From contig NZ_CP021059.1 of assembly GCF_002119805.1 (NCBI RefSeq), positions 744,001 to 808,000 of the forward strand: a stretch of DNA of 64,000 nucleotides, given 5' to 3'. The stretch's first letter is position 1. Each line of letters starts with the position of its first letter. The notes beneath the pieces are model-generated. The model made no database searches. It was not told the origin of the DNA and worked only from the letters and a program-made list of their open reading frames with translations. Shown one piece after another: positions 10,212 to 36,091 of this stretch. Source of the stretch: Macrococcoides canis (GTDB taxonomy: Bacteria > Bacillota > Bacilli > Staphylococcales > Staphylococcaceae). The translations under genes and the position numbers were made by a program.

Positions 10212-11600
10212 ATGAAAAGAATTTCAATTTTATTGATGATAGTACTGCTATCATTCAGCGCACATCCTGCACAAGCAGCAAGTCAGGACGAAATGCGTAT
10301 CTATAGTATTCTTACAGACAGATTTATGAATGGTGATGAAAATAATAATAAAGACATTCATAATGACGAAGACAATAACCTGCCATATGGCGGAGACTTT
10401 AAAGGTATCATCAATAAAGTAGACTATATTAAGAAGATGGGCTTTAATACGATTCATGTATCTCCGGTGTTTGACCATGAGAAGAATGACTATCTAGGGT
10501 ATAAGATTAACAATTATAATCAAATCTCTAAAACGTTCGGTGGAGAGAAGGACTTCAAACAGCTCGTTTATCTCGCACATAAAAATGATATGAAGGTCAT
10601 CGTGGACATGCCTGTTACAGCAACAGATGCATTTATTGCAGCAAAAGACACGAAGATGAATGCAATAGAGAAGTCGTATTACAAAGATACACCAATTATT
10701 GATTTAACGAATGAAGCAAATATTAAACGCTATAAGCAGCTGATGACGGACTTTGTAAATAAAACGAAAGTTGACGGATTATCCATGTACATGCTTCAGG
10801 ATAATATCGATATATCAAAAGTATTCCCGGATAATGTTACGAAGATAGCTATTACGAATAGTGACGTGAAAGTAACTGGTTATGATTATATTCAGACAGG
10901 AAAGACATCTGAGCAGATCGCACAGTCATTCAAGAATGTCGATCAGAATATCCCAGAAGCATACAATAAAAAAGAGCTACTCGCAGCAGATAACTTCTTT
11001 ACACCGCGTTTCACAAGCTATGCAGTAGCTGAAAATATGTTCCCGGGAACACGTATAAAACAGATGATGGGCTATCTGTTTGTGCAAAAGCAGCCCGTCA
11101 GCATGACTTACGGAACTGAGATTGCAATGAACGGGGAAAAACTTCCGGATACGCACCAGCTACTCGATTTTAGAACAGATAAAGAAGTGGTTGAATATTT
11201 AGAGCAGACGAGTGAAGTTTATCATAAGTATAAAGAAATGTTTGATGGTACTTCTAAAGTAATCTACAACGAAAAAGGTGAACAGCTTATCTATTTCGAT
11301 ACGGATAAAGTAGATTTCATCTATAATATTAACGATACAAGTAAATCTACGAACGTTAAACTGACGGACAAAGACATACCAGGCGATAAAATGCTGAGTG
11401 GATTACTTATCGGTGACAGAATCCATGTGAAAGACGGCAAGTTTAATTTGATAACGAACCGTGAAGAAACTGAGCTTTATGCGCTCATCCCACCACGTGG
11501 ATTGAACTTAGGATATGTGATCGCATCACTATTAACCATTGTACTATTTACAGCATTTATCATCGGTGCAGCAAGAAACAGAAAGAAACACGTACGATAA
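10212..11600 (+). CDS. Membrane-anchored GH13 (alpha-amylase family) protein, probably catalytically inactive
   Basis: A 462-residue exported protein with an N-terminal signal peptide (cleavage likely after AQA near residue 22), a GH13 barrel, and a C-terminal membrane helix (about residues 432-452) followed by a basic RNRKKH tail. GH13 opening motifs are clear: YSILTDRFMNGD (31-42), GGDFKGIINKVDYIKKMGF (60-78) and HVSPVF. The catalytic regions are not conserved. Region I reads VDMPVT instead of D.V.NH, region II reads VDGLSMYML with Tyr where the nucleophile Asp belongs, and region IV reads NFFTPRF instead of NHD. I infer a surface-exposed binding or scaffold protein rather than an amylase. 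It starts its own unit after the yisL terminator. Confidence 0.82.
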   Translation: MKRISILLMIVLLSFSAHPAQAASQDEMRIYSILTDRFMNGDENNNKDIHNDEDNNLPYGGDFKGIINKVDYIKKMGFNTIHVSPVFDHEKNDYLGYKINNYNQISKTFGGEKDFKQLVYLAHKNDMKVIVDMPVTATDAFIAAKDTKMNAIEKSYYKDTPIIDLTNEANIKRYKQLMTDFVNKTKVDGLSMYMLQDNIDISKVFPDNVTKIAITNSDVKVTGYDYIQTGKTSEQIAQSFKNVDQNIPEAYNKKELLAADNFFTPRFTSYAVAENMFPGTRIKQMMGYLFVQKQPVSMTYGTEIAMNGEKLPDTHQLLDFRTDKEVVEYLEQTSEVYHKYKEMFDGTSKVIYNEKGEQLIYFDTDKVDFIYNINDTSKSTNVKLTDKDIPGDKMLSGLLIGDRIHVKDGKFNLITNREETELYALIPPRGLNLGYVIASLLTIVLFTAFIIGAARNRKKHVR

Positions 11601-11680: not shown

Positions 11681-12120
11681 GGTGCGGGAAATAGGAACGG
11701 GAAGTAGGTACGGGTGCCCAAACAGAGCGCGGTATGTGCAGAAAGTGGCGTGGGCGCCCAAACGAAGCGCGGTACGTGCAAAAAGTGGTGTGGGCGCCCA
11801 AATGGAGCACGGTACGTGCAAAAAGTGGCGTGGGCGCCCAAAAAAAGCGCGGTAAGTGCAGAAATAGGCGTGAGCGCCCAAAAAAAGCGCGGTAAGTGCA
11901 GAAATAGGCGTGGGCGCCCAAATGGAGCGCGGTACGTGCAAAAAGTGGTGTGGGCGCCCAAACGGAGCGCGGTACGTGCAAAAAGTGGCGCGGGCGCCCA
12001 AACGGAGCGTGGTATGTGCAGAAAGTGGCGTGGGCGCCCAAACGGAGCGCGGTATGTGCAAAAAGTGGCGTGGGCGCCCAAACGAAGCGCGGTACGTGCA
12101 GAATAATATTAAAACGCCCA
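11681..12120. repeat. Tandem array A: 40-bp units, about nine full copies plus degenerate ends
   Basis: From 11721 to 12080 nine 40-bp units run head to tail without spacers. A diverged unit precedes them (11681-11720) and a half unit follows (12081-12120). Each unit carries the palindrome TGGGCGCCCA (or a one-base variant), then a variable part with AGCGCGGTA, then TGTGC or CGTGC and a short A-run with GTGG. Unit G+C is about 26 of 40 bases, far above the neighbouring genes. The array lies between convergent genes (GH13 protein and cdr) and stops at the cdr terminator, whose ACGCCCAAA arm resembles the repeat core. Several long reading frames cross it on both strands only because the unit lacks stop codons. 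Confidence 0.93.
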
Positions 12121-12141
12121 AACTGACAACAGTTCGGGCGT
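12111..12141 (-). terminator. Terminator of cdr
   Basis: ACGCCCAAACTG pairs with CAGTTCGGGCGT with one mismatched pair. On the minus strand the stem is followed by TTTT and AT-rich sequence. The terminator at 30337-30372 after array B has a closely similar stem. Confidence 0.75.
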
Positions 12142-12177: not shown

Positions 12178-13494
12178 CTATTTCGCTTTATACCCGAGCA
12201 TATTAATAATATCTTTCGGGCTGGAGTAATCTGGATGATAAGCAACTTCGATATCTTTAAAATCATAGATTGTTAATCCACCGATTATTGCAGTTGAGAC
12301 AACATCGATTCTTTTATCAACACCGCTTTTTCCTGCTGCACTTGCTGATAATATTTTGCCTGTTGATTGTTCATAATAGACAGTCATAGTTAGAGGTGTA
12401 CTGTATGGCATATATCCAGCCTTATATTTCTGGGTCTGAGAGACTTTTGCAATATTATCCATTTCTAGAACTAGTGTTTCTGGCAAACCTACTGATGCAT
12501 ATGTATGATCGAATAGTCGAAGAATATTGCTGCCAAGTAATCCTTTAAATGCTTCTTTATCTTTATGGAATAAGTTATGAGCAATAATCGAAGCCGCACG
12601 ATGTGTTCCCCATGCAAGTGCAATTGTTGCTTTCTGATCTACGTGACGATAGAACGTTTCAATTGCATCACCAAGTGCAAAGATAGATGAGTTGCTCGTT
12701 TCAAAATATGGATTGACCTTTATATAACCTTTATTGTTGAGCTCGAGTGTATCACCGATAAACTTCGTGTTTGGCTTCAGTCCGAGTGCTGTAATGATGA
12801 TATCAAATGTTTCGGTATCACCTGATTTAAAAGTGACAGTGCGCTCGTTAATACTGACAACCTCATCTTCTAGTTTCAGATTAATACCGTTATCTTCAAG
12901 TACTTGTGGAATCGTATCTGTAATATCCCGACTCATCTGTTTTAAGAAGTGACTGCTACGATGTACGAGGGTCACATCCAGCCCACGATGCTTTAAATTT
13001 TCTGCCATCTCGAGACTAATATATCCGCCACCTACTACTAGTGCGCGCTTCGCATTCATACGTCCGATATACTGGTCAATCTTATCCGTATCTTCTAGGT
13101 TGCGCAGCTGAAATACATGATCGTGTCTGTATAGATCTGGTACGACCTGACTTGCTCCAGGTGATAGAATCAAGTAATCATATGTATCGGTCTGTGTTTC
13201 ATCAGTACGATGATTATAAATTTCGATTTTCTTTTCTTCTGGAAATAAACGTGTCACCTCATGATATGTGTGCACTTGAATATTACGGTTATCATTGAAG
13301 GTATCTGGTGTTGCCATAACGATATTATCACGGGAACCTACTGTTTCTCCGATATAATAAGGTAAACCACAGTTTGCATAGCTCATATCACGATCTTTTT
13401 CGTAAATAACGATCTCAGTATCTGCATCGAGTCTTCTAATTTGAGAGGCAACTGTTGCACCACCTGCAACAGCGCCCACTATAATAATCTTCAT
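12178..13494 (-). CDS. cdr: CoA-disulfide reductase
   Basis: FAD-dependent pyridine nucleotide-disulfide oxidoreductase of 438 residues that reduces CoA disulfide with NADPH, maintaining CoA as the main low-molecular-weight thiol in staphylococci. The N-terminal FAD-binding GAVAGGATVA motif is followed by the single active-site cysteine in SYANCGLPYY (Cys42). The NAD(P)-binding motif appears as VVGGGYISLEMAE, and the second FAD motif as FALGDAIE. The start codon overlaps the last base of the upstream HAD gene, so the two are co-transcribed on the minus strand. Confidence 0.93.
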   Translation of the reverse strand: MKIIIVGAVAGGATVASQIRRLDADTEIVIYEKDRDMSYANCGLPYYIGETVGSRDNIVMATPDTFNDNRNIQVHTYHEVTRLFPEEKKIEIYNHRTDETQTDTYDYLILSPGASQVVPDLYRHDHVFQLRNLEDTDKIDQYIGRMNAKRALVVGGGYISLEMAENLKHRGLDVTLVHRSSHFLKQMSRDITDTIPQVLEDNGINLKLEDEVVSINERTVTFKSGDTETFDIIITALGLKPNTKFIGDTLELNNKGYIKVNPYFETSNSSIFALGDAIETFYRHVDQKATIALAWGTHRAASIIAHNLFHKDKEAFKGLLGSNILRLFDHTYASVGLPETLVLEMDNIAKVSQTQKYKAGYMPYSTPLTMTVYYEQSTGKILSASAAGKSGVDKRIDVVSTAIIGGLTIYDFKDIEVAYHPDYSSPKDIINMLGYKAK

Positions 13495-14394: not shown

Positions 14395-14703
14395 ATGGAA
14401 GAAGCTATGAAAGACAGTATAATGGGCGCACTTGAAAACGTTATCGACCCTGAGCTGGGTATTGATATCGTTAACTTAGGATTAGTCTACCATGTGGATA
14501 TGGATGAAGATGGACTATGTACAGTTGAAATGACTTTAACATCAATGGGCTGCCCGATGGGACCCCAAATTATTGATCAGGTGAAGACAGCATTAGGTGA
14601 ATTGCCTGAGATTAAAGAGACGGAAGTCAACATCGTATGGAATCCAGTATGGAATAAAGATATGATGAGCCGCTATGCGAAAATTGCATTAGGTGTAAGC
14701 TAA
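14395..14703 (+). CDS. sufT: MIP18/DUF59 family iron-sulfur assembly protein (SufT/YitW-like)
   Basis: A 102-residue protein of the MIP18 (DUF59, PaaD-like) family. The signature DPELGIDIVNLGLVY and the cysteine loop TSMGCPMGPQI are both intact. In S. aureus SufT helps mature iron-sulfur proteins under high demand. The start is the ATG at 14395 after GAGGTG at 14383-14388; the upstream in-frame GTG at 14386 overlaps the ribosome-binding site. A likely -10 box (TATAAT) lies near 14371. The gene stands alone and is followed by a tandem palindromic repeat. Confidence 0.87.
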   Translation: MEEAMKDSIMGALENVIDPELGIDIVNLGLVYHVDMDEDGLCTVEMTLTSMGCPMGPQIIDQVKTALGELPEIKETEVNIVWNPVWNKDMMSRYAKIALGVS

Positions 14704-14970
14704 GGACGTGACACGAGCGTTCAGACACGAATAAAATCATGAAAATCTGGCAGGAAATGTTTTTTGTTTCCAGCCAGATTTTTGATTTTTGGAAGTGTCT
14801 GCTCGTGGAACGCCGTAAATAAAAGGACGGGACACGAGCGTTCAGACACGAATAAAATCATGAAAATCTGGCAGGAAATGTTCTTTGTTTCCAGCCAGAT
14901 TTTTGATTTTTGGAAGTGTCTGCTCGTGGAACGCCGTAAATAAAAGGACGTGACACGAGCGTTCAGACAA
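14704..14970. repeat. Tandem 121-bp nested palindromes (two full units and a partial third)
   Basis: Units start at 14704 and 14825 and a truncated one at 14946, each opening with GGACG.GACACGAGCG. Inside each unit a long hairpin is formed by AAAATCTGGC and AGGAAA pairing with TTTCC and AGCCAGATTTT. The flanks CACGAGCGTTCAGACAC and GTGTCTGCTCGTGGAACGCC are imperfect inverted repeats enclosing it. The two complete units differ at very few positions. The block fills the convergent spacer between sufT and fnr and is the only content there apart from the terminator that follows. Confidence 0.92.
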
Positions 14971-28480: not shown

Positions 28481-30046
28481 GTGGACGGTCTTTTTAAAGA
28501 AAATAAGAAGTTTTTAATCATTACTTTTATTTTTACTTTAATAACTGCACTGCTGACAGTATCTGTACCATTACTGCTTACAACTGTATTTGGTGAGAAT
28601 TATAATATCAATAAAAGCACGCTTTGGTTAGTCATCATTTTCATGTTCATAACATACGTCATTCAAATTGTCATGGTGTATATTCGAGAGCATTTTGCCT
28701 ATGAGTTTAATGTAAGCCATACGCATAAATTATATCGACTGATGCATAAAATGAACTATGATGATCTACTTCAAAAAGAACCGACATACCTTATTGACCG
28801 ATTTGCTATGATTGTAAACAGTTTCTATATGATCATCGCAAATAGCATTACCAGTTTAATGAGCAATATTATTATTTTGCTTGTATGCCTTGCAATTGTA
28901 CTGAAAATAAATTTATGGCTTGCAGTCATATTGTTTATACTGATTCCTATCAACTACTTTGGATATAAACTGATCAATAAAAATTTGATGGAAAAAAGCA
29001 AGGTTATGCAGCAGCAGACCTCTACAGGTTATAAAGAAATCATCGGTGTATTTAATAATGTTGATATGGTTAAACAAGCGTCATATGAACGTATAGAAAA
29101 TTTAATCAGACCTTCTGTACATCGCATATTTCATTCGATGAAAGAAGTAAATAAATTCGCACAAAGCACGAGTTTAATGATTAAGTTATTAAATAGCTTT
29201 ATTCAGAATATGATGTATTTTGTACTCGCTTATTTTATCTATACAGGACAGACTGAAGTAAGTGCGCTTGTTATTGTGAGTATCGTGTTACCGATATACT
29301 TTGTGTCATTACAAGCATTTACAAGTATCAATTTAGAATATCGTGAAATGCAGGTGTCCAATGAATTTATTACAGATGAAATTTTGCCTGTAGTTGAAAA
29401 AGAAGGACATAAAAGCATTGATGAAATTGATAAAATAACAATTAAAGATGCAACTGTTAAAATTGGCGATCGTATCTTTCAATATGATGTGGACGAGACA
29501 TTTAACAAAGGTGATATCGTCTTTGTTACAGGCACGTCAGGAAGTGGGAAGAGTACATTGATGAAGAGCTTATTAAAGTATAGAACAAGTTCAGGCGTAA
29601 TGATCAATGAACAAAGTGTCAATGAGCTTAATAATCAAAATTTACGTGAACATATTTATTATCTTTCTCAGGATAGTTCCATATTACCGATGTCAATTAA
29701 GGATAATATCGCATTCGGGAAAGATGAAAGTGCGATTGACTGGGATATGATGAGCGGTCTGGATGTATTACAGTCAGTATTAACACATCATAATTTAGAT
29801 GAAGTTATCTATGAAAAAGGCACGAACTTCTCAGGTGGAGAAAAGCAGCGTATTATGATTTCACGACTATTCCATGAACAGGTAGACTGTGTCATTTTAG
29901 ATGAGGTGACGAGTAACATTGATAAAGCCTCACAGCAGATGATTCTGGAATCAGTGTTAAAATATTGTAATGACAAAATTGTATTTATAATCTCTCATGA
30001 TCCGGAGGTCGAACGATTTACAAATAGAACGTTAAAGGTGGGGTGA
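28481..30046 (+). CDS. ABC transporter, fused permease and ATPase (exporter type), unknown substrate
   Basis: A 521-residue half transporter with about six N-terminal membrane helices (to residue 280) and a C-terminal ATPase. The ATPase shows Walker A TGTSGSGKSTLM, the signature FSGGEKQRI and Walker B VDCVILDEVTS. The topology is that of homodimeric exporters of lipids, peptides or drugs. The GTG start at 28481 follows directly after the DUF2087 stop codon. The substrate is unknown, and the gene does not occur at this place in the staphylococcal order I know. Array B follows. Confidence 0.88.
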   Translation: MDGLFKENKKFLIITFIFTLITALLTVSVPLLLTTVFGENYNINKSTLWLVIIFMFITYVIQIVMVYIREHFAYEFNVSHTHKLYRLMHKMNYDDLLQKEPTYLIDRFAMIVNSFYMIIANSITSLMSNIIILLVCLAIVLKINLWLAVILFILIPINYFGYKLINKNLMEKSKVMQQQTSTGYKEIIGVFNNVDMVKQASYERIENLIRPSVHRIFHSMKEVNKFAQSTSLMIKLLNSFIQNMMYFVLAYFIYTGQTEVSALVIVSIVLPIYFVSLQAFTSINLEYREMQVSNEFITDEILPVVEKEGHKSIDEIDKITIKDATVKIGDRIFQYDVDETFNKGDIVFVTGTSGSGKSTLMKSLLKYRTSSGVMINEQSVNELNNQNLREHIYYLSQDSSILPMSIKDNIAFGKDESAIDWDMMSGLDVLQSVLTHHNLDEVIYEKGTNFSGGEKQRIMISRLFHEQVDCVILDEVTSNIDKASQQMILESVLKYCNDKIVFIISHDPEVERFTNRTLKVG

Positions 30047-30080
30047 CGAAGTGTTCTTTAGTGCATTTACCGGAAAGAGT

Positions 30081-30320
30081 TTGTGCGTAAAAGGATCAAA
30101 ATGCCCAAATACTCATCTGTATGTGCGTAACAGGGTCAAAATGCCCAAATATTCAACTGTATGTGCGTAACAGGATCAAAATGCCCAAATAATCATCTAT
30201 ATGTGCGTAACAGGGCCAAAATGCCCAAATATTCAACTGTATGTGCGTAACAGGGTCAAAACGCCCAAATACTCATCTGTATGTGCGTAACTGGGTCAAA
30301 ATGTCCAAACACTAAGCTAT
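30081..30320. repeat. Tandem array B: six 40-bp units
   Basis: Six contiguous 40-bp units without spacers. A typical unit has ATGTGCGTAACAGGGTCAAA, then ATGCCCAAAT, then a variable ACTCATCTGT-like decamer. Unit G+C is about 17 of 40. Array A at 11.7 kb has the same 40-bp period and keeps ATGTGC-N16-GCCCAAA in the same register although most other positions differ. The array lies between convergent genes (the exporter and trpS) and ends at a GC-rich terminator. The stretch 30047-30080 shows nothing recognisable. Confidence 0.93.
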
Positions 30321-30336
30321 TTGGGCACCACATCAC

Positions 30337-30372
30337 GAAAACGCCCGAACCATCACCGGTTCGGGCGTTTTC
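30337..30372. terminator. Bidirectional terminator between array B and trpS
   Basis: GAAAACGCCCGAACC pairs perfectly with GGTTCGGGCGTTTTC. Terminal T or A runs exist on both sides. The stem closely resembles the cdr terminator at 12111-12141. Confidence 0.88.
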
Positions 30373-30391
30373 TATCTCAATTCATCTTAAC

Positions 30392-31803
<1,412 letters not shown>

Positions 31804-35986: not shown

Positions 35987-35994
35987 TTATACAT

Positions 35995-36091
35995 GAAATT
36001 GATCACATACCAAACATACCCCTTTGTTTGAGTGAAAGATTTCTCCCATCCCCTTTGTTTAATACCGTGTATAGAGACACGGTATTTTTTT
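35995..36091 (+). ncRNA. rsaE: Small regulatory RNA RsaE (RoxS)
   Basis: A roughly 97-nt RNA predicted from the promoter to the terminator (ATACCGTGT and ACACGGTAT, then T residues). It contains two C-rich seeds CCCCTTTG at 36019-36026 and 36050-36057, plus the block TTTCTCCCATCCCCTTTG known from staphylococcal RsaE. The location between pepF and yjbH is the same as in S. aureus. RsaE/RoxS pairs with ribosome-binding sites of TCA-cycle and folate or redox genes to lower their expression when respiration is impaired. The Rex-like operator upstream fits that role. Confidence 0.93.

Follow-up and report, generated by a model that had tools for sequence, protein, structure and literature searches.

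Between the convergent genes for an ABC transporter and a tRNA synthetase, the Macrococcoides canis chromosome carries a tandem array of 40-bp units (array B). A second 40-bp array (array A) in the same window shares its core, ATGTGC-N16-GCCCAAA, in a common register. The window is the whole stretch of DNA analysed, 64,000 nucleotides (C1:744001-808000) of a one-contig genome of 2,363,414 bases. The locus raises the question of how two arrays that differ over most of their sequence come to share a period and a core. The features at array B are:

28481..30046, + strand: ABC transporter gene (PF00005), upstream of array B
30081..30320, + strand: array B, about six 40-bp units, the last one diverged; core ATGTGC-N16-GCCCAAA
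30303..30326, + strand: diverged final unit of array B, left arm GTCCAAAC, right arm TATTTGGGC
30341..30368, no strand assigned: terminator-like hairpin of array B, ACGCCCGAACC-N6-GGTTCGGGCGT
30392..31384, - strand: class I tRNA synthetase gene (PF00579, W and Y; trpS by reading), convergent with the ABC transporter gene

TRF reports array B at 30082-30313 with period 40, 5.8 copies, 89% matches and 0% indels. The left arm of the hairpin, GCCCGAAC, starts at 30343, 40 bp past the previous anchor at 30303. Folded as DNA, 30340-30370 reaches -14.9 kcal/mol (z -7.0), and the whole array region, this strong hairpin included, gives z -4.4 on the + strand and -2.0 on the - strand against shuffles. 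A consensus terminator scan over 29900-30500 reported no terminator, the end hairpin included; only four T follow the stem. A plasmid look-up with the upstream ABC transporter gene gave no match. The sole Rfam match on the window and four loci was the small RNA RsaE (RoxS; RF01820, 88 bits) at window positions 35993-36089, with nothing in any array. The features at array A are:

10212..11600, + strand: alpha-amylase-domain gene (PF00128), upstream of array A
11712..12100, + strand: array A, TRF period 40, 9.7 copies; same family as array B
12114..12141, no strand assigned: terminator-like hairpin of array A, left arm GCCCAAAC at 12116, in exact 40-bp register
12178..13494, - strand: pyridine nucleotide-disulphide oxidoreductase gene (PF07992), convergent with the amylase-domain gene

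An earlier note, made from the sequence alone, described these arrays accurately. ATGTGC and GCCCAAA keep a common register in both, the gene calls place each array between convergent genes, each ends in an ACGCCC-RAAC hairpin, and the consensus G+C is 17/40 in B against 26/40 in A. The two differ at more than half of their positions (21/40 differ and 19/40 agree, the register being counted by eye). The likeness of A and B is not by itself above chance: 19/40, the best over 80 registers and strands, has p=0.095 (1000 dinucleotide shuffles), and local alignment gives p=0.23 (500 shuffles). A-B similarity was therefore dropped as stand-alone evidence.

The genome as a whole supplies what the pair lacks. 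The genome search proposed in the earlier note, with the pattern ATGTGC-N16-GCCCAAA, returned 21 exact matches against 0 for the reversed control, and a two-unit pattern allowing at most 3 mismatches returned 40 against 0. Together these define a family of seven arrays (A-E, G and H), all of period 40, and the short copies F and I. Their loci were placed with a sequence profile of 29 units, and one further array was met in TRF samples:

377.2-377.6 kb, - strand: array H
521.5 kb, + strand: array C
691.3 kb, + strand: copy I, a single unit
702.8 kb, + strand: array E
755.7 kb of the contig, + strand: array A
774.1 kb of the contig, + strand: array B
1747.9 kb, - strand: array D
1958.7 kb, - strand: copy F, two units
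2082 kb, - strand: array G
C1:1903260-1903435: array J, period 40, from the TRF samples

Agreement within an array is 0.87-0.97, as against 17-34 of 40 positions between consensi. The whole 40-bp unit recurs, with that agreement holding over the full period, rather than identical repeats separated by unique spacers as in a CRISPR. None of 1000 shuffles reached the similarity of A-C (34/40), A-D (27/40), A-H (26/40), C-H (27/40), B-D (25/40), B-E (24/40) or B-G (25/40), each taken separately. By the same test B is weakly like C (p 0.030) and not significantly like F (0.185) or H (0.132). Local alignment of B (500 shuffles) ranks E first (0/500), followed by G (0.002), D (0.014), C (0.078), F (0.19) and H (0.75). 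Array J has its lowest p values with E (0.010) and H (0.012) and was kept apart from the family. Judged by these sequence comparisons, A and B are members of one family, joined via the other arrays, and the dispersed, diverging repeat family proposed in the earlier note is supported by the seven arrays and the copies F and I. That note had made its reading depend on the existence of further arrays with this core: they are present within the genome, and none was found across the other species searched. No description of these arrays was found in the titles and abstract openings covered by a literature search.

By eye, the unit consists of a 24-bp imperfect dyad, GCCCAAAC-N8-GTATGTGC, and a 16-bp spacer, and pairing of the dyad would leave the third and sixth positions mismatched. 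The right arm GTA-N-RTGC, mismatches included, is common to most internal units. Dyad pairs number 6.4-8.5 of 12 in A-E and H, where shuffles give 3.5-4.0, and 4.5 in F and 4.8 in G, barely more than the 3.8 of shuffles; this excess is partly built in, as the extraction pattern fixes some of the arm-end letters. Folded as RNA, 24-nt units from D and H do better on average than their shuffles, those from C slightly so, and those from A, B, E, F and G do not; an RNA-hairpin role of the units was rejected on this count, the excess being clear only in D and H. Nor is the conserved functional core suggested in the earlier note supported: five of the eight arrays fold no better than shuffles, and the two-unit pattern (at most 3 mismatches) occurs in none of 106 other genomes of the bacterial family, eight congeners among them.

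Where a next unit would stand at the 3' end of A, B and G there is instead a hairpin, its left arm GCCCRAAC lying exactly 40 bp past the previous anchor. By eye, this last unit resembles an intrinsic terminator, the left arm of which, GCCCRAAC, is also carried by the internal units. Unlike terminators, the internal units have mismatches and no T-run, fold like shuffles in five of eight arrays, and thus lack the stable hairpin and T-run of the class; the end hairpin of array B is stable yet went unreported by the scan. The end hairpins of A, B and G probably terminate transcription. A GCCC-type hairpin is missing from the 3' ends of C, D, E and H, and the first three of these arrays start directly after terminators of unrelated sequence (both by eye). 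Arrays J (L212 15226-15259) and E (L054 ~2698-2742) start directly after a near-identical terminator, AAGGTCGAGAC..GTGTCTCGACCTTTTAT, which is followed by TTTCTGCAC or TTCTGCAC, perhaps a start signature.

Under stricter filters, the profile at E<=0.01 matched 5 of 107 genomes of the bacterial family: that of M. canis (the host of the arrays), G001, G004, G008 and, at one site, G100 from another genus. At E<=1, 7 of the 9 genomes of the genus gave a match, G005, G006 and G007 with one weak match each. A degenerate two-unit pattern had no places in a named genome collection, which may omit the host and near genomes, and no congener was among the matches listed in the named-genome scan. Trp-tRNA synthetase identity is 98% in G008, G001 and G004 and 90-92% in the other five congeners.

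Array loci were compared with their counterparts in relatives, and at all five (A, B, E, G and H) the relatives read there lack 40-bp arrays. At locus B (trpS), read by eye in all eight congeners, G004 has the hairpin alone, G001 a solo 24-bp dyad 26 bp upstream of the hairpin, and G008 two units 31 bp apart followed by GGGC, 16 bp and the hairpin; the diverged final unit of array B also has a counterpart in G008 (by eye). G002, G003, G005, G006 and G007 have no unit there by eye, and other terminators or repeats instead. Locus G (pyrG side; G001, G004 and G008 read by eye) has the hairpin alone in G001, a half unit (ATGC, 16 bp, then the GCCCGAAC hairpin) in G004, and a single unit 11 bp ahead of the hairpin in G008. 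Locus A in G008 and G004 has GTGC-N16-GCCCAAA followed by a short hairpin and no array, and in G001, G003 and G005 neither element (by eye). At locus E no array is present in G001, G004 or G008; G003 has a different neighbour and G005 gave no orthologue. Locus H likewise lacks an array in G001, G004 and G008, which are also without both downstream genes, and has other neighbours in G003 and G005. Seven spacings could be read in relatives: four are 16 bp, two of these from sister species at one locus, and the rest are 7, 11 and 26 bp.

We propose that array B belongs to a young intergenic tandem family, specific to this species, that grew from transcription terminators, with some dispersal, a reading to which we give an even chance of being correct. 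The common seed in the terminator that the earlier note offered as an alternative is supported more strongly than its dispersed family, by the hairpin in exact register in A, B and G and, by eye, by the array-free GTGC-N16-GCCCAAA before the hairpin at locus A of G008 and G004. The seed would have been a terminator-like hairpin with left arm GCCCRAAC, preceded at a distance of 16 bp by the end of a second half-site that reads GTGC, ATGC or GGGC. Slippage or unequal exchange may then have duplicated the 40 bp between equivalent points, producing units of a 24-bp dyad and a 16-bp spacer; we infer both this duplication mechanism and the direction of change. The end hairpin would have been retained as the last unit, while internal units kept weak stems and diverged locus by locus; any role of theirs at gene 3' ends would be weak. 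The loci C, D, E, H and I, which lack an end hairpin of this kind, would also have received seeds by some route. Some copying between loci is needed, since independent decay of terminators would not yield the shared right arm with its mismatches. The half-sites and hairpins without arrays in relatives are possible pre-array states. These possible pre-array states and the array states of the same loci can be aligned between sister species, with the terminator-like hairpin as last unit, giving the family a concrete origin to test.

Several observations weigh against terminator seeding. A neutral version of seeding accounts only in part for the common right arm, for arrays that lack a GCCC hairpin and for the missing indels; the 16-bp spacing appears in only four of the seven readings from relatives; and the hairpin of array B escaped the terminator scan. 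Arrays A-E, G, H and J together contain 192 mismatches to consensus, representing at least 118 changes, and 0 phase shifts, a constancy beyond what simple neutral slippage would produce. Aligned non-coding DNA of the host and G008 shows 723 substitutions and 72 indels (some overlapping loci counted twice), and at this intergenic ratio the arrays should have about 12 indels. Other arrays have 11 shifts per at least 470 changes, two of them (G001 L222 and G003 L175) agreeing poorly without gaps.

This absence of phase shifts favours a second explanation, selected DNA architecture, in which phased dyads at near-whole helical turns would be bound side by side at gene 3' ends by a protein (nucleoid, gyrase-like or bridging, for example). 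We regard it as unlikely. Homogenisation among units could also remove indels, the imperfect dyad that stands above shuffles in six of eight arrays was extracted in a way that favours pairing arms, and the candidate protein is hypothetical. A further argument in its favour comes from the periods of arrays in the genus. TRF was run on 2.06 Mb in total, comprising 464 kb of the host (with the window), 400 kb each of G001, G008 and G006, and 395 kb of G003. Sampling was not fully blind, as G003 and G006 came from few contigs and one host stretch lay off the even grid. Non-coding arrays scoring at least 150 gave 28 rows, one of which (period 45, coding-like by eye) was dropped. The 27 kept periods are 40 (4 arrays), 41 (6), 50 (1), 61 (3), 62 (6), 84 (3) and 118, 121, 123 and 124 (1 each).

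Periods of 40-41 or 61-62 therefore account for 19 of 27 non-coding arrays in five congeners, with three more at 84. Setting aside the five arrays seen beforehand (A, B, the 121-bp array of the window, one 62-bp array of the host and the 40-bp array of G003), the count is 15 of 22. Periods 123 and 124 look like three-fold and two-fold forms of the 41-bp and 62-bp families, respectively; 50, 118 and 121 fit poorly. With the same script, none of 13 control arrays in 1.93 Mb fell in the 40-41 or 61-62 bins, 42 and 60 missing by 1 bp. The controls were 400 kb of a genome from another genus of the bacterial family (G029; periods 59, 60, 97 and 124) and 1.53 Mb around the same gene at 80 loci of other genera (27, 42, 52, 52, 52, 71, 104, 156 and 156). 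Six of these control loci (L261, L271, L278, L284, L267 and L275) carry non-coding repeats of 52, 52, 52, 104, 156 and 156 bp, all multiples of 52.

The congener arrays were sorted by eye, from cross-scores and with no fixed threshold, into 15 families, of which G008 L191 and G006 L252 may be one. Twelve of the 13 families with periods of 36-66 fall in two 2-bp bins; among 5000 random sets the highest count was 9. The periodogram is best at a step of 11.2 bp (R 0.87); values of 0.80-0.82 occur at 10.2-10.5 and at 20.5, and random sets reach no more than 0.82, so that the helical repeat is not singled out. Both tests are weakened by possible hidden common ancestry of the families, high cross-family scores linking the period-50 array with E (z 6.6) and, as a pair of one 41-bp and one 61-bp array, G001 L222 with G006 L246 (z 5.7). 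These periods suggest, without proving it, a spacing rule of about 21 bp.

Gene context is recorded for 34 loci (the 27 arrays and C-I of the host): by script, 18 are convergent, 15 same-direction, 0 divergent and 1 undetermined, which puts the loci next to gene 3' ends, in keeping with terminator seeding. The ORF lists make D and F same-direction, which lowers the convergent count to 16. Fourteen control arrays (score at least 140) are 1 convergent, 10 same-direction, 1 divergent and 2 undetermined. The start of the contig carries a dnaA-like protein (by recognition) and GC skew changes sign near 1.18 Mb. Units run with the replication fork at eight of nine loci, A, B, C, E and I on the + strand of the first half and D, F and G on the - strand of the second, with H running against it; the two-sided sign test gives about 0.04 (by hand) and is confounded with gene direction.

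A broader form of selected architecture would hold that the intergenic arrays of the genus, despite their different sequences, keep 40-41, 61-62 and 84 bp through a DNA-geometry reader that generates or selects them, for instance a protein that bridges DNA or binds it cooperatively where genes end. We think this decidedly unlikely. Were it true, the core of array B would be the form that a general phased-array system takes at a single locus. Clustering at 40-41 and 61-62 bp, if it held in whole genomes, would suggest that DNA geometry constrains bacterial minisatellites.

Three further repeats were seen during this survey. The window contains, at 14702-14969, an array of period 121 (2.2 copies) with a long inverted repeat; it scores as related to a 118-bp array of G003 (L158 18143-18526; z 7.8). 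A 62-bp family with an inverted repeat of the TGGCTCGT...ACGAGCCA type occurs with the same period in three species (host L202 6768-7108 and 8574-8863 and L213 1-394; G001 L230; G008 L193). In G003, repeated pieces like GGCAGTCGAATGGGCGTT lie at several loci (L117, L141 and array flanks in L163 and L175), some of them beside arrays.

STAR (Staphylococcus aureus repeat) elements are the nearest known kind. One account (PMC3532100) calls their function, origin and spread unknown and gives GTGGGACAGAAATGAT as their start signature. It describes intergenic direct repeats with a short motif and a locus-specific rest, species-specific sets and local expansion, all of which resemble the present arrays; by reading, these too have a short conserved core and a locus-specific remainder. 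Descent of the arrays from the STAR family is nonetheless highly improbable, and by motif and unit length they fall outside it. The STAR motif TDTGTTGKGGCCCM is absent from the M. canis genome; the 14-bp form T(G/A/T)TGTTG(G/T)GGCCC(C/A) occurs 0 times there and in 23 of 107 genomes of the bacterial family, once in the congener G005. A STAR unit measures about 54-58 bp (motif and 40-44 bp spacer; 56-58 bp as cut here), as against 40 in A-E, G and H, and a further difference is that A, B and G of M. canis close with the end hairpin as an in-register final unit. Sequence comparison of nine consensi with four STAR units gave p <=0.05 in 9 of 36 cases, uncorrected; A was best, beating all 200 shuffles in two of four comparisons (uncorrected), and B had none. 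Taken together, the motif search and the sequence comparisons leave STAR homology overall unsupported.

Independent local slippage at each locus, with the 40-bp period a coincidence, would account for the locus-specific units and for an A-B similarity that is not significant alone. It would not produce GTGC and GCCC in a shared register or 21 exact core matches against none reversed. The multi-array comparison largely refutes it, B-D, B-E and B-G each exceeding all 1000 shuffles, though B-D falls to p 0.014 by local alignment, and we consider it most improbable.

REP/BIME elements go with RAYT transposases. Mobile palindromes of that kind have next to no chance of explaining the arrays, even though imperfect palindromic units in tandem beside gene 3' ends resemble BIMEs: the genome has no match to the Y1 (RAYT) transposase family PF01797 at E<=0.01, whereas 6 of 14 control genomes are positive, and few solo copies, so RAYT mobility was dropped. 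Rather than being dispersed as many solo copies, the palindrome TGCAYNTA...TANRTGCA has 9 sites in the host, 7 in array H and the others confined to two places; outside array H and G001 trpS it is about as rare as its reversed control.

One observation on the array H locus stands apart from these. An identical 33-bp terminator stretch (L102 2691-2723 and 4750-4782; about C1:377.2-379.3 kb) lies at both ends of a segment of about 2 kb, which holds array H and two genes, one of them sigma-factor-like by eye, that are missing from G001, G004 and G008. From this arrangement, the segment looks like an insertion with a duplicated terminator.
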